This document shows positions 10,920 through 50,011 of a stretch of DNA of 50,212 nt, in pieces. The notes below the pieces were generated by a model. That model was given only the letters and a program-made list of their open reading frames with translations, searched no databases and was not told where the DNA came from. This DNA is from Bacteroidales bacterium (lineage in GTDB: Bacteria; Bacteroidota; Bacteroidia; Bacteroidales; WRLA01): assembly GCA_031254805.1 (NCBI GenBank), contig JAIRTP010000012.1, forward strand, positions 1 to 50,212, given 5' to 3'. Each line of letters starts with the position of its first letter. Position 1 is the first letter of the stretch. A program made the translations under genes and the position numbers.

Positions 10920-11867
10920 TTAAAACTTTTTCAAACGGCGGAAAATGAAAGCAATAATTAAGCCTGAAGCGATATGCCAAACGCCCCACCATGCCGTTAC
11001 GAAAAGCATTCCGCCGGTTACTACGCCGGGAGGAAATATCTTCGGATTGAACAATAATGCCAATCCCAGCCCCGAATTTTGTATTCCTGTTTCTATGGAT
11101 ATCGTTCTGCGGTCAGGAATACTATGCTTGAATAAAGAAGCTAATGAAAATCCCGTAGTAATAGCTAATCCATTGTGAATAAGCACTATGATGAAAATAT
11201 AACCAAAATTATGAAGGAAATTATCTAAATTATTCCACATAGCCATTATCAAGATTGCCGAAAAAGCAATTAGTGAAAGAAATTTAATCGGTCGCAAAAT
11301 CTTATCTTTTATTTTTGGGAAAAAGCGAGAAAATAACATCCCCAAAATCAGAGGCAACGCTAAAAGAATACAAAGCGTGATAAGAATTTGTGGAAAGTCT
11401 ATTTGAAGCGGTTGAAGCAGATCGACGGTTCTTTTACTCAAAAAATTAATATACATTCCTCCCCAAATCCGAAAGTTGAGCGGCGTCATAATAACGGCGG
11501 CGGCGGTGCTAAATCCGGTAAGCGATACAGAAAGAGCAATATTTGCTTTTGCCAGCGACGAGATGTAATTCGACATATTTCCTCCCGGGCATGCGGCTAC
11601 CAAAATCATCCCCATCGCTACGCTTGGAGGAATGAATTTATATCCGGCCGCTACAATTAAAAAGGTAACAGCAGGTAAAGCGATCCATTGACTAAATAAT
11701 CCGACAATTAATGGTTTGGGAGACAAAAATACTTGTTTAAAATCGGAAAATTTTACATCCAGCGCTATCCCAAACATAATAAAAGCCAATACAATGTTGA
11801 CTATCAGAATACCGTCTTCGCTAAAATTAATGGTAAAATTATCTAATGCTTCCAGTTTTTCGTACAT
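10920..11867 (-). CDS. Bile acid:sodium symporter (SBF) family transporter
   Basis: A 315-residue hydrophobic protein with about nine to ten transmembrane segments. It has SBF-family (PF01758) features such as ACPGGNMSN (about residues 91-99) and a later ETGIQNSGLGLAL block, which form the crossed Na+ binding region in structurally known members. These are sodium-coupled organic-anion carriers; the substrate here is unknown. It is transcribed divergently from the lysine fermentation genes across a 283-base spacer, so it could import an acid or help export a product, but that is inference. Confidence 0.85.
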   Translation of the reverse strand: MYEKLEALDNFTINFSEDGILIVNIVLAFIMFGIALDVKFSDFKQVFLSPKPLIVGLFSQWIALPAVTFLIVAAGYKFIPPSVAMGMILVAACPGGNMSNYISSLAKANIALSVSLTGFSTAAAVIMTPLNFRIWGGMYINFLSKRTVDLLQPLQIDFPQILITLCILLALPLILGMLFSRFFPKIKDKILRPIKFLSLIAFSAILIMAMWNNLDNFLHNFGYIFIIVLIHNGLAITTGFSLASLFKHSIPDRRTISIETGIQNSGLGLALLFNPKIFPPGVVTGGMLFVTAWWGVWHIASGLIIAFIFRRLKKF

Positions 11868-12150: not shown

Positions 12151-12795
12151 ATGGATAAACAGATAAGTATAGATGAGGCAGTTGCTAAGATAAAAGACGG
12201 GATGACCTTAATGATCGGCGGTTTTTTGGCTAATGGAACGCCTGAAAAAATCATCGATGCATTAGTCAAAGCCAATGTGAAAAACTTGACGATCATTGCC
12301 AACGACACCGGATTTCCCGATAAAGGCATTGGAAAATTGGTTGTGAATCATCAGGTAAAAAAGATCGTCACTTCTCATGTAGGAACAAATCCCGAAACAG
12401 GCAATCAAATGAACGCCGGTTTAATGGAGGTTGAATTTTCTCCGCAAGGCACTTTAGCGGAACGCGTAAGAGCCGGCGGCGCCGGAATAGGCGGATTTCT
12501 TACTCCGACAGGATTAGGGACGCAAGTAGCTGAAGGAAAAGAGATTATTGAACGTCATGGCAAACAATATCTTTTTGAAGAACCATTACGCGCCGATGTG
12601 GCTCTTTTAAAAGCCAATGTGTCCGATCATTTAGGCAATCTTATTTACAAAGGAACGACTCAAAATTTTAATCCATTGATGGCGACGGCGGCAGATATCG
12701 TGATCGTCGAAGTGGAAGAATTAGTTGAAACCGGAAAACTTCCTATAGAAGCCATTCATACGCCGCATATTTTTGTGGATTATATTGTTCAATAA
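12151..12795 (+). CDS. atoD: 3-oxoacid/butyrate-acetoacetate CoA-transferase subunit A
   Basis: A 214-residue class I CoA-transferase alpha subunit. It has the N-terminal block TLMIGGFLANGTPEKII (CoA-binding GGF region, residues 20-36) and the GGAGIGGFLTPTG loop near 110-122. In lysine fermentation this enzyme moves CoA between acetoacetate and acyl-CoA partners. The length is normal. The catalytic Glu is on the beta subunit (AtoA), which should follow directly but does not; the next gene after 76 bases is kal. AtoA must be encoded elsewhere for this to work. It is the first gene after a strong promoter and dyad. Confidence 0.88.
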   Translation: MDKQISIDEAVAKIKDGMTLMIGGFLANGTPEKIIDALVKANVKNLTIIANDTGFPDKGIGKLVVNHQVKKIVTSHVGTNPETGNQMNAGLMEVEFSPQGTLAERVRAGGAGIGGFLTPTGLGTQVAEGKEIIERHGKQYLFEEPLRADVALLKANVSDHLGNLIYKGTTQNFNPLMATAADIVIVEVEELVETGKLPIEAIHTPHIFVDYIVQ

Positions 12796-12871
12796 ATAAC
12801 GACAAGTACATGCAATCGATAGAGCAAATTTTATAAAACGCTCTTTTATTGTTAGATAAAAAAAGGAAAAC

Positions 12872-13255
12872 ATGGAAAAAGTGATGATACGCGTGCGCAT
12901 GAGTTCGCACGACGCCCATTATGGCGGAAATTTGGTAGACGGAGCAAAAATGTTGCAACTTTTTGGCGATGTAGCTACGGAATTATTAATTAGAAACGAC
13001 GGCGACGAAGGACTTTTCAGAGCTTATGATAGCGTTGATTTTCTGGCTCCCGTATATGCCGGCGATTACATTGAAGCTATAGGAGCGATAACAGAGAAAG
13101 GAAATAGTTCTCGTAAAATGACTTTTGAAGCGAGAAAAGTGATCGTTCCGCGCACGGATATCTCAGAGTCGGCGGCTGATGTTTTGGAGGAACCGATCGT
13201 GGTTTGCAGAGCGTCGGGAACTTGCGTAGTACCAAAAAGTTGCCAAAGAAAATAA
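12872..13255 (+). CDS. kal: 3-aminobutyryl-CoA ammonia-lyase
   Basis: A 127-residue hotdog-fold protein matching Kal, which removes ammonia from L-3-aminobutyryl-CoA to give crotonyl-CoA in lysine fermentation. The sequence begins with a conserved strand ([20 protein letters not shown]) where hotdog thioesterases and lyases place active-site residues. It then has a [13 protein letters not shown] strand near 52-64. The assignment depends strongly on the neighbours: kce is next and atoD is just upstream. Alone it could be read as a generic thioesterase-like protein. Confidence 0.85.
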
Positions 13256-13328
13256 AATTTTGCCGAGAGGTGAAATATAAATTGAAAAAGATTGATCATA
13301 AAAAAGTTATATTTTAATAAATATTTTT

Positions 13329-14150
13329 ATGGAAAAACTCATCATCACAGCCGCGATATGCGGCGCGGAAGTTTTGAAGGAACACAACCCTGCGATTCCT
13401 TACACAATTCCGGAGATGGTTCGCGAGGCAAAATCTGCTCACGAAGCAGGAGCCAGCATCATCCATCTTCATGTTCGCTACGACGACGGAACGCCGACGC
13501 AGGATAAAGCGCGTTTTAAAGAGATCATCGACGCCATTAAAGCTGAAATCCCCGACGTTATTATACAACCGTCGACGGGCGGCGCTGTCGGAATGAGCAA
13601 CGACGAAAGATTGCAACCTATTGAATTATTGCCCGAAATGGCAACTTTGGATTGTGGAACGCTTAATTTCGGAGGCGACGAAATTTTCGAAAACACCGAA
13701 AATACGATCAAATATTTTGGAGAGAGAATGATACAATTGGGTATTAAACCCGAATTGGAAGTTTTCGATAAAAGTATGATCGATATGGCGTTGCGTCTAC
13801 ATAAAAAAGGATTTATTAAAGCTCCGATGCATTTCGATTTCGTTATGGGCGTCAATGGCGGTATTTCAGGAGAATTGCGCGATTTCGTCTTTTTACGCGG
13901 CAGTATTCCCGCTGATGCGACTTATACCGTAGCCGGTATCGGGCGTTATGAATTTCCGCTTGCGGTAGCCGCTATCATCGACGGCGGACATGTACGCGTA
14001 GGATTTGAAGATAACGTGTATCTGTCAAAGGGTGTTTTAGCTAAGTCAAACGGCGAATTGGTGGAAAAAGTAGTGCGTTTGGCGAAAGAATTTGGACGCG
14101 AAATTGCGAACCCGCAGGAAGCAAGAGCAATATTAGGATTGAAAAAATAA
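13329..14150 (+). CDS. kce: 3-keto-5-aminohexanoate cleavage enzyme
   Basis: A 273-residue TIM-barrel protein of the BKACE (DUF849) family. Kce condenses 5-amino-3-oxohexanoate with acetyl-CoA and splits it to 3-aminobutyryl-CoA and acetoacetate. The zinc ligands H46 and H48 (IIHLHVR) fall at exactly the positions known for Kce. The catalytic-region acid E14 (CGAEV) and E227 (VGFEDNVY), the likely third zinc ligand, are present. It lies 73 bases after kal. The DNA between it and kdd holds a decayed GxxExxY gene. Confidence 0.92.
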   Translation: MEKLIITAAICGAEVLKEHNPAIPYTIPEMVREAKSAHEAGASIIHLHVRYDDGTPTQDKARFKEIIDAIKAEIPDVIIQPSTGGAVGMSNDERLQPIELLPEMATLDCGTLNFGGDEIFENTENTIKYFGERMIQLGIKPELEVFDKSMIDMALRLHKKGFIKAPMHFDFVMGVNGGISGELRDFVFLRGSIPADATYTVAGIGRYEFPLAVAAIIDGGHVRVGFEDNVYLSKGVLAKSNGELVEKVVRLAKEFGREIANPQEARAILGLKK

Positions 14151-14191
14151 TTTATTTGACCACAAAAGCGCACAGAGGTTTTCACGGAAGA

Positions 14192-14534
14192 ATGAATAGA
14201 GAAGAAAATTTTAAAAAGTATTAGATTACGCTTTTTGTGTTCATACTGAATTGAGCGCCGGATGATCGGAAAACGTTCATAAAGAATAATTGTTCTACGA
14301 ATTGGAATACATGGAGGTCAAAATTGAGCGGAAAATTTATAAAGAGGTAAATTAGATGCATTACCGAATAAATTTATTGGTTGAGAATTGTGCGGCAACA
14401 GGATTGAAATCGCTTATTGATGTTCGCTTTATTTAAATTCTTGCATATTTGAAACGCTCCAAATGCAAACTCAGGCTTCTTGTAAATCTCAATGATAAAG
14501 CCTACAGAAAGGCATAAAATGCGTAATTTCATAA
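14192..14534 (+). pseudogene. GxxExxY-family gene, decayed
   Basis: Reading across frames gives MNREENFKK, then VLDYAFCVHTELSAG, SENVHKE, LFYELEYMEVKIERKIYKEV, HYRINLLVEN, ILAYLKRSKCKLRLLVNLN and finally GIKCVIS-stop. In order these match the GxxExxY family (vHxxLGpGLLExvYee, eidlLVe, qllsYLK, GLLiNFn, GikRvv). In-frame stops (at SAG-stop, HKE-stop, KEVN-stop and the RFI-stop) and at least three frameshifts show it is dead. The lead-in CACAGAGGTTTTCACGGAAG is typical of the repeats that precede such genes. It fills the 509-base gap between kce and the first kdd. Confidence 0.8.
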
Positions 14535-14609
14535 ATCTTTAGTATTTTTGTGAAACTTTTTGCGCTTAAAACAGAATAATAAACGAATAATTTTATAACA
14601 ATAAAACTT

Positions 14610-14637
14610 AGTATCTTTTGAAATCATTAGTGATACT
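14610..14637. repeat. Inverted repeat upstream of kdd
   Basis: AGTATC, 16 bases, then GATACT, ending 22 bases before the kdd start. A weak -7-like sequence (TACTTTG) overlaps the right arm. It may be an operator or simply chance in AT-rich DNA. Confidence 0.3.
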
Positions 14638-14659
14638 TTGTATTTAAACAAGAAAGAAC

Positions 14660-15703
14660 ATGCAAAAGAAAGGAAACAAATACGGGCTTCACAGAGTCAT
14701 TGAGCCTAAAGGCGTATTGCCGCAACCGGCAAATAAAATAGATAATAACATGGACGAAATCTATGATAATGAGATTTTAATAGACGTCCAAACGCTGAAC
14801 ATCGACTCGGCTAGCTTCACTCAAATCGAAGAACAAGCCAAAGGCGACAAGGCAAAAATTGCAGAAATCATGCTCGACATCGTCGATAAACAAGGAAAAC
14901 ACCGTAATCCGGTGACCGGTTCCGGCGGAATGTTGCTGGGAACGGTAGAAAAAATAGGCGATGCGCTTGTCGGAAAGACAGATTTGAAAGCAGGCGATAA
15001 AATAGCGACATTGGTTTCGCTCTCGTTAACTCCGCTGAGGATAGACAAAATCAAAGATATCCGCCCTGATATAGATCAAGTTGATATTGATGGAAAAGCA
15101 ATTTTATTTGAAAGCGGTATTTACGCTAAAATTCCGGACGATATGCCGGCAACATTAGCTTTATCCGCATTAGACGTAGCGGGCGCGCCGGCGCAAACGG
15201 CAAAATTAGTCAAACCGGGCGATACGGTCCTTATCATCGGAGCCGGTGGAAAATCGGGCATGTTGTGCTGTTATGAAGCAAAAAAACGTACCGGAATTAC
15301 CGGAAAAGTAATCGGTTTATGCCATAGCGAAAGAAGCGCCAAAAGATTGCAGGAACTCGGATTCTGTGATTATGTCTTCTTGGCCGACGCCACGCAACCT
15401 GTTCCGGTTCTCGAAAAAATCGAAGAACTCACCAACGGCGACCTCTGCGACGTCGCAATCAATAACGTAAATATTCCCGATACTGAAATGACCAGCATCC
15501 TTTGCACCAAAGATACGGGCGTTGTTTATTTCTTCTCCATGGCGACAAATTTTACAAAAGCCGCCTTAGGAGCTGAAGGAGTTGGCAGCGACGTGACGAT
15601 GATTGTTGGCAACGGTTATACCAAAGGTCATGCGGAAATTACGCTTCAGATATTACGCGAAAGCGAAAAGTTAAGAAAAGTATTTACCGAACTTTATGCA
15701 TAA
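14660..15703 (+). CDS. kdd: L-erythro-3,5-diaminohexanoate dehydrogenase, copy 1
   Basis: A 347-residue medium-chain-type dehydrogenase. Kdd oxidatively deaminates 3,5-diaminohexanoate to 5-amino-3-oxohexanoate with NAD(P)+. The family's N-terminal sequence (YGLHRVIEPKGVLPQPA), the NPVTGSGGMLLGTV block and the nucleotide-binding loop VLIIGAGGKSGML (about 196-208) are all present. It is one of two adjacent copies: the next gene starts inside the last 8 bases of this one (ATGCATAA overlap), and I judge the two proteins clearly more than half identical by eye. Length and motifs are normal, so both look functional. Confidence 0.92.
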   Translation: MQKKGNKYGLHRVIEPKGVLPQPANKIDNNMDEIYDNEILIDVQTLNIDSASFTQIEEQAKGDKAKIAEIMLDIVDKQGKHRNPVTGSGGMLLGTVEKIGDALVGKTDLKAGDKIATLVSLSLTPLRIDKIKDIRPDIDQVDIDGKAILFESGIYAKIPDDMPATLALSALDVAGAPAQTAKLVKPGDTVLIIGAGGKSGMLCCYEAKKRTGITGKVIGLCHSERSAKRLQELGFCDYVFLADATQPVPVLEKIEELTNGDLCDVAINNVNIPDTEMTSILCTKDTGVVYFFSMATNFTKAALGAEGVGSDVTMIVGNGYTKGHAEITLQILRESEKLRKVFTELYA

Positions 15704-16748
15704 GAAAGAGTATAAAAAAGGATGCCGATATGGTACGCATCGGGTAGTTTCTCCGGTCGGTACGCTGCCGCAACCGGCGGAGAAACTTGATAATACCATG
15801 GTAATTTATGATAATGAATTGCTTATCGATGTTTCTACCTTGAACATCGACTCTGCAAGTTATACCCAGATCAAGCAATCTTGTAACGGCGATGCCGAAA
15901 AGATGAAAAAGATGATACTTTCGATCGTCGATGAAAGAGGAAAAATGCAAAATCCCGTAACAGGTTCGGGAGGAATGTTAATAGGAACGGTAAAAGAAAT
16001 TGGTCCTAATTTTCCGGCAAATAAAAAGATAAAAGTAGGCGATAAAATAGCTACGTTGGTGTCACTTTCATTAACGCCGTTACAAATCAAAAAGATAGAG
16101 CATCTTTCTCCCGATTCTGATCAAGTTGATGTTGAAGCTGAAGCCATTTTATTTGAAAGCGGTATATTTGCCGTTTTACCGGATGATATTCCGGAAAAGC
16201 TGGCTTTAGCGGCATTGGATGTGGCGGGCGCTCCGGCACAGGTCGACAGACTTGTAACAGAAGGAGACATCGTATGTATTATTGGCGGAGGTGGAAAATC
16301 AGGCATTTTATGCTGTTATCAAGCAATGAAAAATGTCGGAAATTACGGAAAAGTTATCGTGGTAGAATTTTCCAACTCGAATGCGCAACGAATTATCGAT
16401 ATGAGTTTGGCGACCGACGTCATTGTAGCAGATGCGACCAACGTAATGGACGTTTACAATAAAGTGATGAAAATTACAGGTGGAAGAGGTTGCGACGTTA
16501 CGATTAATAACGTCAACGTTCCTTCAACGGAAATGACCTCCATTTTGGTCACCAAAGGTCAAGGCTGCGTCTATTTTTTCTCCATGGCGACTAGTTTTAC
16601 CAAAGCGGCTTTGGGAGCCGAGGGCGTTGGAAAAGATATCAATCTCATTGTGGGGAACGGTTATGCGCGCGGACATGCGGAATTAACCTTGAATATAATT
16701 CGCGAATCGGAAGAGATAAGAAATTTATTTGAAAAGATATACGTGTAG
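15696..16748 (+). CDS. kdd: L-erythro-3,5-diaminohexanoate dehydrogenase, copy 2
   Basis: A 350-residue paralogue of the gene before it, with the same blocks: YGTHRVVSPVGTLPQPA, NPVTGSGGMLIGTV, nucleotide loop CIIGGGGKSGIL, and VYFFSMATSFTKAALGAEG near the end. Differences cluster at the N-terminus and in the stretch after the nucleotide loop, which contacts the cofactor ribose in this fold (GKVIVVEFSNS here, GKVIGLCHSER in copy 1). The two copies may therefore differ in NAD/NADP preference or subunit pairing; this is inference. A 143-base spacer separates it from kamA. Confidence 0.9.
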   Translation: MHKKEYKKGCRYGTHRVVSPVGTLPQPAEKLDNTMVIYDNELLIDVSTLNIDSASYTQIKQSCNGDAEKMKKMILSIVDERGKMQNPVTGSGGMLIGTVKEIGPNFPANKKIKVGDKIATLVSLSLTPLQIKKIEHLSPDSDQVDVEAEAILFESGIFAVLPDDIPEKLALAALDVAGAPAQVDRLVTEGDIVCIIGGGGKSGILCCYQAMKNVGNYGKVIVVEFSNSNAQRIIDMSLATDVIVADATNVMDVYNKVMKITGGRGCDVTINNVNVPSTEMTSILVTKGQGCVYFFSMATSFTKAALGAEGVGKDINLIVGNGYARGHAELTLNIIRESEEIRNLFEKIYV

Positions 16749-16891
16749 TTAAAAGAGTAAGGGATGAGGCGTGTTTTTTAATTAAAAATGGCGGAGCGTA
16801 GAAAGAATTAAACTAATCTCGCTCGCTTCCTTATTCCTTGAGATAAAAAGAAAATATATTAAGAACGTTATAGATCAAAGTTATTACGTCA

Positions 16892-18139
16892 ATGAATAAT
16901 AGAAAGAGAATGTTTCCGGAAGTTGCCGACGAACAATGGAACGACTGGAAATGGCAAGTAAAAAATCGAATAGAAACGTTAGAAGATTTAAAAAGATATA
17001 TATCGCTTACTGCAGAGGAGGAAGAAGGGGTAAAAAAATCTTTGGCGACTTTACGTATGGCGATTACGCCGTATTATCTCAGTTTGATCAATCCGGACGA
17101 TCCGCATTGTCCTATTCGGAAACAAGCGATTCCGACAGGAGTAGAAACGCGTCAATCAGCGGCGGATCTTCTTGATCCGCTTCATGAAGATGAAGATTCT
17201 CCAACGCCGGGACTTACGCACAGGTATCCCGACAGAGTACTCTTTTTGATTACCGATATGTGCTCCATGTATTGTCGTCATTGTACCAGGAGAAGATTTG
17301 CCGGTCAAACCGACAGCGAATCGCCGTCCGAACGGATACAAAAAGCGATAGATTATATCGCCCGTACGCCTGAAGTGCGCGATGTTTTACTATCCGGAGG
17401 CGATGCGTTGATGGTTAGCGACGCTATGCTGGAGTCGATCATTCAAAGATTAAGGGCCATTCCGCATGTTGAAATCATTCGTATAGGAACGCGTACGCCG
17501 GTCGTGTGTCCGCAGCGTATTACGGACGATTTGGTGAATATGCTGAAAAAATATCATCCTATTTGGCTGAATACTCATTTCAACCATTCTAACGAAGTAA
17601 CGCCGGAAGCTGCCGAGGCTTGCGCCAAACTTGCTAATGCAGGCATTCCGTTAGGAAATCAAACGGTGCTTTTGCGCGGCGTGAACGATTGCGTCAACGT
17701 GATGAAGAAGTTGGTTCATAATCTTGTAAAAATAAGAGTTCGTCCATATTATATCTATCAATGCGATCTTTCTATGGGGCTGGAACATTTTCGCACGCCC
17801 GTTTCAAAGGGGATTGAGATCATTGAAAGTTTGCGGGGACACACTTCCGGATATGCGGTACCGACTTTTGTCGTAGATGCTCCGGGCGGCGGCGGTAAAA
17901 CGCCGGTTATGCCGACTTATATAATTTCTCAAAGTCCGTCGAAAGTGATATTGCGTAATTTTGAAGGTGTTATTACTACTTATACGCAGCCGGAGAATTA
18001 TGTAGACGAATGTTATTGCCAAGATTGTCAAAAACTTCATAGCGAAGGTGTTGCAGGATTGTTCGAGAACGATGATCCGAATAAGATAGCTTTAGAACCG
18101 ACCGAGCTTGCTCGTAAAAAAAGACATAAAAATAGTTGA
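16892..18139 (+). CDS. kamA: Lysine 2,3-aminomutase
   Basis: A 415-residue radical SAM, PLP-dependent enzyme that converts L-lysine to L-beta-lysine, the first step of the pathway. The cluster motif is C124-x3-C128-x2-C131 (CSMYCRHC). The PLP lysine is K336 in PGGGGK. The lysine-binding acids D292 (QCDLSMG) and D329 (VVDAPGG) match Asp293 and Asp330 of the clostridial enzyme, which supports lysine rather than glutamate as substrate. The C-terminal zinc motif C374-x-C376-x2-C379 is present. Right after its stop come inverted GTGCGAAAG-type repeats and a decayed foreign gene, which separate it from kamB. Confidence 0.95.
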   Translation: MNNRKRMFPEVADEQWNDWKWQVKNRIETLEDLKRYISLTAEEEEGVKKSLATLRMAITPYYLSLINPDDPHCPIRKQAIPTGVETRQSAADLLDPLHEDEDSPTPGLTHRYPDRVLFLITDMCSMYCRHCTRRRFAGQTDSESPSERIQKAIDYIARTPEVRDVLLSGGDALMVSDAMLESIIQRLRAIPHVEIIRIGTRTPVVCPQRITDDLVNMLKKYHPIWLNTHFNHSNEVTPEAAEACAKLANAGIPLGNQTVLLRGVNDCVNVMKKLVHNLVKIRVRPYYIYQCDLSMGLEHFRTPVSKGIEIIESLRGHTSGYAVPTFVVDAPGGGGKTPVMPTYIISQSPSKVILRNFEGVITTYTQPENYVDECYCQDCQKLHSEGVAGLFENDDPNKIALEPTELARKKRHKNS

Positions 18140-46627: not shown

Positions 46628-46662
46628 AAAGCCAAAATATGTAAAAAAAATATTTTGGCTTT
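46628..46662 (-). terminator. Terminator of the propeller-lipoprotein operon
   Basis: Perfect 13-bp stem AAAGCCAAAATAT (46628-46640) / ATATTTTGGCTTT (46650-46662) with a 9-base loop. It lies 26 bases past the stop of the DUF4221-type gene. The T-tract on the minus strand is short (TTTTGT), so strength is uncertain. Confidence 0.7.
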
Positions 46663-46688: not shown

Positions 46689-48332
46689 TTATTCTGCAAG
46701 TTTTTCTCTCAATAAGTTCATGTCGCCGGGGTTGATGATTTTCTTATAAACGATTTCTTTATTTGCTTCTATATATTGCGGATTGATCCAAAGATCGACA
46801 TAATGAAGATATCGCCTTGTAAGATCCGTATAGAAAAACGCTTTTGCATCATTATCAACAGCGGCATCGTCAAAAATAATCTTCATGAAATCATCCGCTT
46901 TCTTCTGTTCGGAAGCGATGAGTACAATTGCTAAGTCATTGTTTTTCTTCATCGAAGGCAAGCTTTCTTTGATAATTTTGGCATAAGCAGGCAAACAGGT
47001 CTCGCATGACATTTCCAAAGGAACGAGAAGAAATTTTGAAAATCCCTTACTCTCCGTTATATTGTTTGCATAACGAAGTAGGGACACATCTATATCGGCA
47101 TGTTCATAGCCTTCATTATATTTATCTTTTCGTTCTTTAATGAGACTTGCCAAGTATCCGGACGGCTTTTTCTCAATTTTATAATTGAAAAAGGTCAGAA
47201 TCAATTTATCACCGTCGGCAAAATTATTATTTGCCAAAAAACCGCCATTGTATGGCTTAAGGGAACGATAATATCCTTCAGGCATCACGCCTTCGCCTAT
47301 TTTATTCATATCTTTATCCAACAGCGCAAAAGTATAAATAGTATGATCTTTGCATAAAGGGCTATCCGTCGAATCCGCCGCCACGCGAGCGTACCATATT
47401 ATGATTTCATTAAAAGGATCATATTTCATATTCATATATTCGCCTTTATAATGGTCGTAACCCGGAATAGAATAGGTTGATTGCTTATCGGTATAAAAAT
47501 AAGGCGCAATAGAATCTATCGTAATAAAAGGAATGTATGTTTGCGTCAACTCCTTTGTAGCGATATTGTATTTATATAATGTCGGAGTATGCCCAAAGGC
47601 GGCATACAGGTTCTCTTTTCCATCAAAACATCCGCGGAGAGGCCTAAATCTGTACGTATAGAAATCATGATCGCCATAACAGGGGAAGTAGATGGGAATT
47701 TCAGAATAAGCATCATGATTGCGGTGGTCGATAAAACCCAACGACGCATGTCCGTCGCAATAATTAATTCTTTCATCATATTTTAGAGAAGTATAGACGA
47801 CATCGTCTTGATGGATTAGAGGAAAATCTTTATAATCCGTGACATAATTATGCAATGTGTCGAAGTGCGCTTTTGTTTTCACGGGAAGGCCGTCCAAAAA
47901 GAAAGTGTCAATAATCTTTTTTTCCCTGTTGATCATAACGAGCGCCCGATCGTGTAAATTTCCTAAATATGAGGGCATGAAAGCCAACAGGATGGAATCC
48001 GGGGAGATTATATAAAAATCCTCAATCAATTGTTTCTTGTGAAAATCAAGATCAATGGAGTCTACTATCTTCTTTGAACTTAAACTTAAAAAGTTTAACT
48101 TTCTATTGATTTGATCAATGGAAGCGAAACAGGTATCCCCATTGGGTAAGACATATAATCGCGAGCTCCATGTCGACATTTTTTTGGGCGTGTCAAATTC
48201 TATTTCATATTCCGGAATCAATACAATTACCTCTTCATGAGAAGATTTTGACATACAACACGATATGAAAAAGGAGAATAAGCAAATAATTAATCCTTTT
48301 TCTAATAAGGAATACATTCTTGCTGTTTTCAT
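46689..48332 (-). CDS. DUF4221-like propeller lipoprotein with thioredoxin-like C-terminus
   Basis: About 547 residues. A lipoprotein signal ends in FFISCCMS. The middle (about 40-400) has repeated strand motifs typical of beta-propellers (LYVLPNGDTCFASI, FDGKENLYAAFGHTPTLYKY, KYDPFNEIIIWYARV) and resembles the Bacteroidota DUF4221 family. The last 105 residues begin with SC443ETC446LPAY and read like a thioredoxin-fold tail (LVPLEMSCETC, LAIVLIAS). A role as a thiol-redox partner of secreted Cys-bearing proteins is inferred. Its ATG overlaps the stop of the upstream small lipoprotein by 4 bases (ATGA). Confidence 0.6.
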   Translation of the reverse strand: MKTARMYSLLEKGLIICLFSFFISCCMSKSSHEEVIVLIPEYEIEFDTPKKMSTWSSRLYVLPNGDTCFASIDQINRKLNFLSLSSKKIVDSIDLDFHKKQLIEDFYIISPDSILLAFMPSYLGNLHDRALVMINREKKIIDTFFLDGLPVKTKAHFDTLHNYVTDYKDFPLIHQDDVVYTSLKYDERINYCDGHASLGFIDHRNHDAYSEIPIYFPCYGDHDFYTYRFRPLRGCFDGKENLYAAFGHTPTLYKYNIATKELTQTYIPFITIDSIAPYFYTDKQSTYSIPGYDHYKGEYMNMKYDPFNEIIIWYARVAADSTDSPLCKDHTIYTFALLDKDMNKIGEGVMPEGYYRSLKPYNGGFLANNNFADGDKLILTFFNYKIEKKPSGYLASLIKERKDKYNEGYEHADIDVSLLRYANNITESKGFSKFLLVPLEMSCETCLPAYAKIIKESLPSMKKNNDLAIVLIASEQKKADDFMKIIFDDAAVDNDAKAFFYTDLTRRYLHYVDLWINPQYIEANKEIVYKKIINPGDMNLLREKLAE

Positions 48333-48796
48333 TGAGGCATGCAAATTATAATAGTAACACTTGTCTCAGATTCAGAAAGATGGCATTCTGAGCCTTCTCC
48401 TGAACAACTTATGGTAGTTTCTCCTGTCGTTTCATCCTTTTTCCAAAAGATTTCTTTATCACAACTTTCTCGAGCAAGATCTAAAAATAAACTGTCTTGA
48501 GAATTCCAGCCAAACAACAAAACCTGTTGTCTATTTGTTTCGAATAATTTCACATCAGAATAATTAGAATAGCTCAAATTCATCGAGTTAAGAAGATGAG
48601 GAGCTATCGATTTTTCTATAGCGTCCATGAGTTGCATTGCATGATATGCATCATCAAATTGCAATACATCTTTTGAGGATTCTTTTAAAGAATATTCAAT
48701 GTCCCCATTTTTTTCAATAGAGTCTTTTACACAAGAGGTTAAAGTAACCATTAGAAGTGACAAAAGAAATGTTAAAACAATCTGTCTGGCTTTCAT
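48329..48796 (-). CDS. Small cysteine-rich lipoprotein, paralogue A
   Basis: A 155-residue lipoprotein (signal ending in LMVTLTSCVKD). The mature part carries four cysteines shared with the next gene: one in ESCDKEIF and three in the C-terminal pattern ISCSGEGSECHL...TIIICMPQ. The middle reads DVLQFDDAYHAMQLMDAIEK and FETNRQQVLLFGWNSQDS, with close matches in the paralogue. The C-terminal C-S-G-E-G-x-x-C pattern recalls NVEALA-type Bacteroidota peptides, but I cannot assign it to that family. It overlaps the propeller gene by 4 bases. Confidence 0.65.
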   Translation of the reverse strand: MKARQIVLTFLLSLLMVTLTSCVKDSIEKNGDIEYSLKESSKDVLQFDDAYHAMQLMDAIEKSIAPHLLNSMNLSYSNYSDVKLFETNRQQVLLFGWNSQDSLFLDLARESCDKEIFWKKDETTGETTISCSGEGSECHLSESETSVTIIICMPQ

Positions 48797-48884
48797 AATT
48801 TATAAATTTAAAGTTTGACCATAAATTTTACTTGCTTGAATTTATATTAAACGTTCATCAGTTTCATTCGAATATCACAATATT

Positions 48885-49367
48885 TTATTGTTCTGCACAA
48901 ACAATGATCGTAGCATTTCCATCTGTATCTTTTCCTATACGGCACCCATTTCCTTCCCCTGAACAACTTATGATTTGTATTGCAAAATCAGGGTCATAAT
49001 AAGTGAAATAATCTTTATCACAAATTTCTTGTGCTGCCTCAAATAATTGATTGTTTTGCGAATCCCAACTAAACACAAAAAATCTTTCATCATCTATTTC
49101 AAACATTCTTACAGTAGAATACCCAGAAATATTTAAATTCAGAGAATTAAGAATCCTCGCGTCTATCACTTTCTCCTTCGCTCCCGCTAATTCAAAATTT
49201 TGGCAAACATTTGAAAATTCTAAAATATCAACTGAAGAATTCTTTACAGGGGTTTCTTTGTCATTTATTTCTCCTTGCCTTTCAAAAGTATTTTTCGTAC
49301 AGGAATTATATGATAATATAATAATCCCCGTTAATAAAATTAAACTGATTTCTTTGATTTTTGACAT
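48885..49367 (-). CDS. Small cysteine-rich lipoprotein, paralogue B
   Basis: A 160-residue lipoprotein (signal ending in ILSYNSCTKN). Parallel blocks to paralogue A are DILEFSNVCQNFELAGAKEK, ILNSLNLNISGYSTVRMFE, FFVFSWDSQN, EICDKDYF and a C-terminal ISCSGEGNGCRI...TIIVCAEQ. All four C-terminal cysteines are conserved. It is the promoter-proximal gene of the three-gene unit, 88 bases before paralogue A. The function is unknown. Confidence 0.65.
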   Translation of the reverse strand: MSKIKEISLILLTGIIILSYNSCTKNTFERQGEINDKETPVKNSSVDILEFSNVCQNFELAGAKEKVIDARILNSLNLNISGYSTVRMFEIDDERFFVFSWDSQNNQLFEAAQEICDKDYFTYYDPDFAIQIISCSGEGNGCRIGKDTDGNATIIVCAEQ

Positions 49368-49383
49368 GACTGTAAATTTTTAA

Positions 49384-50011
49384 GCTTAAATTAATGGCAC
49401 AAAGATAAGAAGATTTTAATCGCCGACATCTTGTTGTTAAAAAAAATCAAAATAAAGACTAATGCGTTTCCAATCACTTTTCCGATATTCATATTTGCGG
49501 ACAACGGTATGGAAAGTTTCATCGCATTTTACATATTAACCTGAGTTCGAGATAAGCGTGAGTTGTGGCGTATATTCTTGAAATTTAACTTTTATGGAAG
49601 GCTTCTTTGGGAAGAAACTGTATGCGGCTAATCCTGCGAGCATGTTAACGATAAAATTGGCGACGGAACGATGGCGGGAATGTTCGATTTGGCGTGGAAA
49701 AGAATTAGAATCAGCATCACATCGCTTGTCGACATCTTCCCCGCACGATTTCTTGTTTTTTGCCTGCTTCTGCCGGAAGTAAACACGGGAGTAATACTTT
49801 TTTCAAAATTGTTGAGGAATTCGTCGATGACGTAGTATTTTTCAACTATATTTGCTAATTTTATATTGTTATAAGATTGAATATCAATAATAAAAATATA
49901 TAGAATTATGACGTAGGCGCCCCGGAAGGGGTTATTATGCCTTGTCGGGGACTTTTTTCCTAATTCGCTACTCTCTTTTAATTCATTTTCCTTGAGATAG
50001 ATTCTTGATAA
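49384..50011. other. Gene-poor stretch with possible mobile-element debris
   Basis: I see no convincing gene. A 62-codon frame at 49594-49782 lacks recognisable motifs. At 49908-49966, the plus strand can be read as YDVGAPEGVIMPCRG in one frame, and the DNA contains a CCCCGGAAGGGG hairpin and a CCCCG/CGGGG pair. Sequences of this kind recur near mobile genes in Bacteroidales in my recollection, but I cannot verify it. Confidence 0.35.
49400..49407 (-). promoter_or_regulatory. -7 box of the cysteine-lipoprotein operon
   Basis: TATCTTTG on the minus strand, 33 bases upstream of the paralogue B start. Confidence 0.45.

Follow-up and report, generated by a model that had tools for sequence, protein, structure and literature searches.

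Three adjacent genes on the minus strand of the window (the whole stretch of 50,212 nucleotides that was analyzed) encode one large and two small lipoproteins. They raise the question of whether these proteins work together, what they would do in the cell envelope, and whether such a system is new. An earlier note on this DNA had proposed a new system, acting either as a thiol-disulfide relay or as a processed secreted peptide with its surface receptor. The present analysis indicates that the trio is a real, recurring and undescribed module. It is a variant of a pattern of the Bacteroidales that is itself uncharacterized, and not an entirely new kind of system.

Organization of the Locus

The three open reading frames were confirmed as linked genes of the minus strand, in the order P0003 (160 amino acids, 48885..49367), P0002 (155 amino acids, 48329..48796) and P0001 (547 amino acids, 46689..48332), the last two overlapping by ATGA. 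Their description as lipoproteins was likewise upheld, all three having hydrophobic N-termini that end in a cysteine, in the contexts LTSC (P0002), YNSC (P0003, a weaker lipobox) and FISCC (P0001). None of the three reached the cut-off of any Pfam or NCBIfam model.

The -7 promoter element of Bacteroidota is TAnnTTTG. A pattern scan located a fitting sequence, TATCTTTG (49400..49407, minus strand), about 33 bp ahead of P0003, the first gene, where it may serve as the -7 element of the trio; the gap between P0003 and P0002 (48797-48884) held no match to this pattern. Directly 3′ of P0001 lies a 13-bp perfect inverted repeat, AAAGCCAAAATAT / ATATTTTGGCTTT (46628..46662, minus strand), read from the sequence and not flagged by the pattern scan, which is a possible terminator. 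With a putative promoter before P0003, none between the small genes and a repeat after P0001, a single operon P0003-P0002-P0001 is likely.

The genes downstream of the trio, named by eye from their translations as dtd-like, YjbQ-like and lactate-utilization-like, appear housekeeping-like and not obviously related to it. The trio is an accessory unit, absent from the equivalent site of the congener G001, where an ATPase-like gene precedes dtd in its place. In another genome (G174), a 300 bp direct repeat at 97% (L044:8134-8433 and 11231-11530) flanks a small-large unit. On one side of the unit is a complete aminotransferase-like gene and on the other a second copy of the 3′ segment of this gene, as if the unit had been inserted with duplication. 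No close relatives of the trio were found among 60 relatives, plasmids or viral contigs.

The Large Lipoprotein: a Propeller and a Thioredoxin-Like Tail

Residues 32-387 of P0001 (47172..48239, minus strand) align, in a full-length model of modest confidence (pLDDT 57), with the crystal structure of a DUF4221 protein (3s9j, BVU_1028). This was the best match in the PDB (Z 21.2 over 289 residues at 3.6 Å, the next row being at Z 12.3), and Foldseek gave an E-value of 5.5e-13. P0001 did not reach the gathering score of Pfam DUF4221 (PF13970), and a homologue (L045) passes it (24.7 vs 23.4 bits). The N-terminal two-thirds of P0001 is thus, as modeled, a DUF4221-type propeller, in agreement with the "DUF4221-like" label of the earlier note. 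Short DUF4221 members have in common with P0001 this propeller fold but, at about 390 amino acids, lack its tail.

The tail (approximately residues 415-547; 46692..47090, minus strand) carries the active-site-like motif CETC at residues 443-446 (46995..47006, minus strand). Modeled alone (pLDDT 71.5, pTM 0.73), it is predicted to adopt a beta-alpha-beta-alpha-beta-beta-alpha fold in which the first core helix begins with the CxxC. Its best 50 structural matches all belong to the thioredoxin superfamily, chiefly ResA/TlpA/DsbE, Sco and peroxiredoxins (Z about 7). In line with this, a tail profile of 17 sequences matched FetE of Campylobacter jejuni (8t4c; E 2.3e-5), in an alignment that runs from CPSC as far as the downstream Pro. 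Matches of the same profile to APOBEC3G, of 32 residues around the CxxC, were rejected as chance. The earlier note had made its proposal depend on a thioredoxin fold in this region, and such a fold was predicted; the tail is, from these models, a ResA/TlpA-like thioredoxin domain with a putative capacity for thiol-disulfide exchange.

Compared with the ResA/TlpA/DsbE oxidoreductases (3gl3, 1st9) and FetE, the tail has the same fold and CxxC position, but it is fused to a propeller, is only about 10-15% identical, and its family does not always keep the second cysteine. Among 27 aligned large proteins, the first cysteine is present in 27 and the second in 24. In the three exceptions (CxxT, CxxI), the small partners seen for two keep both of their cysteines, so that a two-cysteine exchange is not obligatory; these losses may reflect decay or, equally well, a monothiol or isomerase-like role. 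NHLRC2 (PMC6107167) likewise unites a thioredoxin-like domain with a beta-propeller in a single protein. NHLRC2 is, however, eukaryotic, and its propeller is of the NHL type. Its thioredoxin domain comes first, unlike that of P0001, and we know of no small cysteine partner for it.

The Small Cysteine Proteins

P0002 and P0003 are paralogues (38% identity over 140 amino acids, E 2e-33), with four cysteines in common beyond that of the lipobox (C112, C131, C138 and C152 in P0002). The earlier description of four conserved cysteines, with a CSGEGxxC...C pattern, holds for these two proteins, but only the C-x6-C pair extends to the whole family. This pair, CSGEGNGC in P0003 (48942..48965, minus strand) and CSGEGSEC in P0002 (48383..48406, minus strand), is the sole invariant feature, both cysteines being present in 21/21 members, with a slightly longer spacing in a few. 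The other two cysteines are limited to the P0002/P0003 subgroup, and the family has no conserved histidines and no further family-wide cysteines.

The upstream partners found in relatives are exported proteins of 104-140 amino acids, usually with a lipobox and very divergent in sequence. In a profile comparison, P0002 and P0003 matched the rest of this family chiefly over about 38 C-terminal columns (probability 94%). By eye they are most like the L044 protein and a piece at L043, the two loci whose large proteins are nearest to P0001. The L043 piece (2815-2949) is a 43-codon open reading frame consisting of the C-terminal cysteine part only (HCEGSGTTC...IICPGTHM), without signal peptide, and is either a remnant or a minimal form of the small protein.

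No convincing match to the family was found in the PDB, and neither P0002, P0003 nor any of the 21 members matched PF14055 (NVEALA). Pfam and NCBIfam names were not retained, the weak matches being mostly to lipoprotein families and read as signal-peptide similarity. One small partner (L088:2647-3348) apparently contains two cysteine modules, CDLSGEEC and CYGTGTEC.

Distribution and Linkage

With P0001 as query, three relatives were found among 393 genomes of the order. Overall, distant relatives of the large protein, at 20-30% identity, occur in about ten other Bacteroidales genera. A profile of four large proteins gave matches in 29 genomes, of which about 15, in about ten genera, have the propeller-thioredoxin form. 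The large-protein relatives reached in the scan of named genomes belong to uncultured Bacteroidales, many from ruminants, and outside the order only forms of about 390 amino acids without the tail were seen in a sample of the phylum.

Of the 29 unique loci for which sequence upstream of the large gene was available, 21 have a gene for a small exported protein directly upstream of it, one (L043) has a remnant, and seven (L093, L094, L129, L130, L131, L132, L134) have no small gene within 700 bp or as far as the sequence extends. The occurrence of homologues without small lipoproteins, named in the earlier note as evidence against the system, is therefore real in 7/29 cases, against 21 that have a small gene. 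These seven loci belong to one rumen clade and its relatives, and one genome with two solo large copies keeps a small-large pair at another locus. Tandem small-large units were observed at three loci (L086, L087, L133), and the small-small-large layout of the window recurs at L085.

A blunt regular-expression test of the linkage that does not use homology gave 13/30 for these loci vs 2/121 for other long open reading frames (Fisher p 5e-9), one locus being counted twice under two names (L081 = L136). Pairwise divergences of small proteins and of their large partners were correlated (Mantel r 0.43, p 0.002, n 12, close clade left out), shared ancestry being still included in this value. Neither the linkage nor the cysteine pattern is due to chance, as both are encountered again in distant relatives.

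Relation to NVEALA Clusters

The nearest known arrangement is that of the NVEALA (PF14055) clusters, with their TolB_like (PF15869), DUF5128 (PF17170) and DUF4221 (PF13970) proteins. A search with NVEALA itself showed that these peptide genes generally lie 0-165 bp before a propeller-sized lipoprotein gene; seven such lipoproteins checked against Pfam were TolB_like, DUF5128 or DUF4221, and at L100 one short DUF4221 gene follows an NVEALA gene. The motif C-x-G-x-G-x(3-4)-C occurs in some of the NVEALA peptides (e.g., CNGIGSLDC, CYGWGDIEC). Moreover, a thioredoxin-like lipoprotein with "DSxGCTxC" adjoins the NVEALA gene in five loci (L140, L143 with GCTRC, L154, L160, L165). The resemblance of these lipoproteins to thioredoxins stays below Pfam cut-offs, and their family resembles the P0001-type tail family in a profile comparison (probability 72%, E 3e-5).

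As in NVEALA clusters, an exported cysteine-containing product is encoded directly upstream of a propeller lipoprotein on the same strand, in the window and at the 21 loci mentioned above. By contrast, the propeller and the thioredoxin domain are joined in a single protein in the window, and the small partner is a lipoprotein of 104-160 amino acids without NVEALA leader. PF14055 has no match in the genome of the window; by this model the trio falls outside the NVEALA family, yet its gene organization is alike. By analogy, it looks like a fused form of an NVEALA cluster, with the same three ingredients, two of them fused. The idea of an undescribed new system thus stands in part: no family model or paper describing the small family or the propeller-thioredoxin fusion was found in the literature searched, but the trio resembles NVEALA clusters. 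That search also returned no paper naming NVEALA or DUF4221, and for DUF5128, DUF4934 and the Pfam accessions it yielded only unrelated papers. As a side observation, some of the GCTxC thioredoxin-like lipoproteins beside NVEALA genes (L140:1925-2794, L154:1698-2294, L160:1900-2763) also carry DUF1573.

Proposed Function and Alternatives

From a mechanistic point of view, we propose, with a probability of about one half, that the small lipoprotein docks on the propeller and has its disulfide exchanged by the tail. The three genes would make up a small operon encoding an envelope system of two parts. In it, the small lipoproteins would be exported as cargo, each with its C-terminal C-x6-C pair closed into a small disulfide loop. 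Their dedicated partner would be the large lipoprotein, its propeller holding the small protein while the ResA/TlpA-like tail makes, breaks or isomerizes the disulfide. This step would probably take place in the periplasm, ahead of surface display or release of the small protein. Physical binding, the thiol chemistry on the small protein, the direction of electron flow, the compartment and the biological role are the parts of this scheme that we infer.

The compartment was considered in the light of the surface export signal of Bacteroidota lipoproteins, C-X-K-(D/E)2 (PMC5080379). In the small family, K occupies +3 after the lipidated cysteine in 17 of 18 recognized lipoboxes and D or E occupies +4 in 14 of them; the window pair has a weak likeness to the signal (CVKDS and CTKNT). 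Large proteins rarely carry a motif of this kind. Given such N-termini in small proteins and their rarity in large ones, the large protein would act on the periplasmic side, on a small protein not yet displayed. The genome encodes a DsbD-type protein, which could bring electrons to the tail, and has no match to a VKOR-type oxidant. If both proteins were at the surface, DsbD would be unable to feed the tail.

Of the two models put forward at the outset, relay and receptor, both are still viable, and the thiol-disulfide link is favored because both cysteine pairs are conserved, the genes have an operon layout, and some NVEALA clusters possess a separate thioredoxin-like lipoprotein. The seven solo homologues, the losses of the second cysteine, the family match of P0002 and P0003 over so few columns and the weak export signals count against it. 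In the receptor model, the small proteins would be released, whole or as a processed C-terminal piece, and act as signals or shared goods. The propeller lipoprotein would be their receptor at the surface, with a tail that is structural or serves another client. The surface-export-like N-termini of the small proteins agree with this, as do the conservation of the C-terminus, the only part kept at L043, and the short exported NVEALA peptides beside propellers. We nevertheless consider it unlikely, since the first cysteine of the tail is never lost, which would be unexpected for an idle domain, the large proteins mostly lack the export motif, and the unit had no sensor, sigma factor or transporter among its observed neighbors in the window.

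FetE is the best match to the tail in sequence, and Sco proteins are among its matches in structure. The cysteines of the small protein might instead bind a metal or cofactor and be kept reduced by the tail, a task that proteins of the FetE or Sco type may perform when iron or copper is acquired. Two reports describe the capture of B12 or iron-siderophores by other propeller lipoproteins of Bacteroides (PMC10404256, PMC13142918). Such a role appears improbable, as the genes recognized beside the unit in the window include neither a TonB-dependent transporter nor a metal gene and the small family lacks conserved histidines or further family-wide cysteines. A cassette for inter-bacterial competition or immunity, in which the small proteins are antagonists that the large lipoprotein matures or from which it protects the producer, would account for the accessory position, differing genomic surroundings, tandem copies and fast divergence. 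We give it very little weight, as no toxin-like domain or dedicated secretion gene was recognized and the weak library matches of the small proteins look like lipoprotein signal-peptide similarity.

The docking and disulfide-exchange reading bears on the NVEALA clusters themselves, whose peptides and neighboring propeller lipoproteins occur in many copies in certain Bacteroidales genomes. A natural propeller-thioredoxin fusion beside a small cysteine protein offers a concrete, testable hypothesis for their function. Tentatively, and against somewhat unfavorable odds, the fusion may be taken as a "Rosetta stone" by which propellers, thioredoxin-like lipoproteins and small exported cysteine products, including NVEALA, form one disulfide-setting envelope system. 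If this is true, the disulfide of a small product that is displayed or released is set by an oxidoreductase under the guidance of a propeller, which would represent a new class of dedicated peptide-maturation machinery.

Elsewhere in the window, positions 12151-18139 carry lysine-fermentation-like genes (CoA transferase, Kce-like and KamA-like), recognized by eye from their translations.
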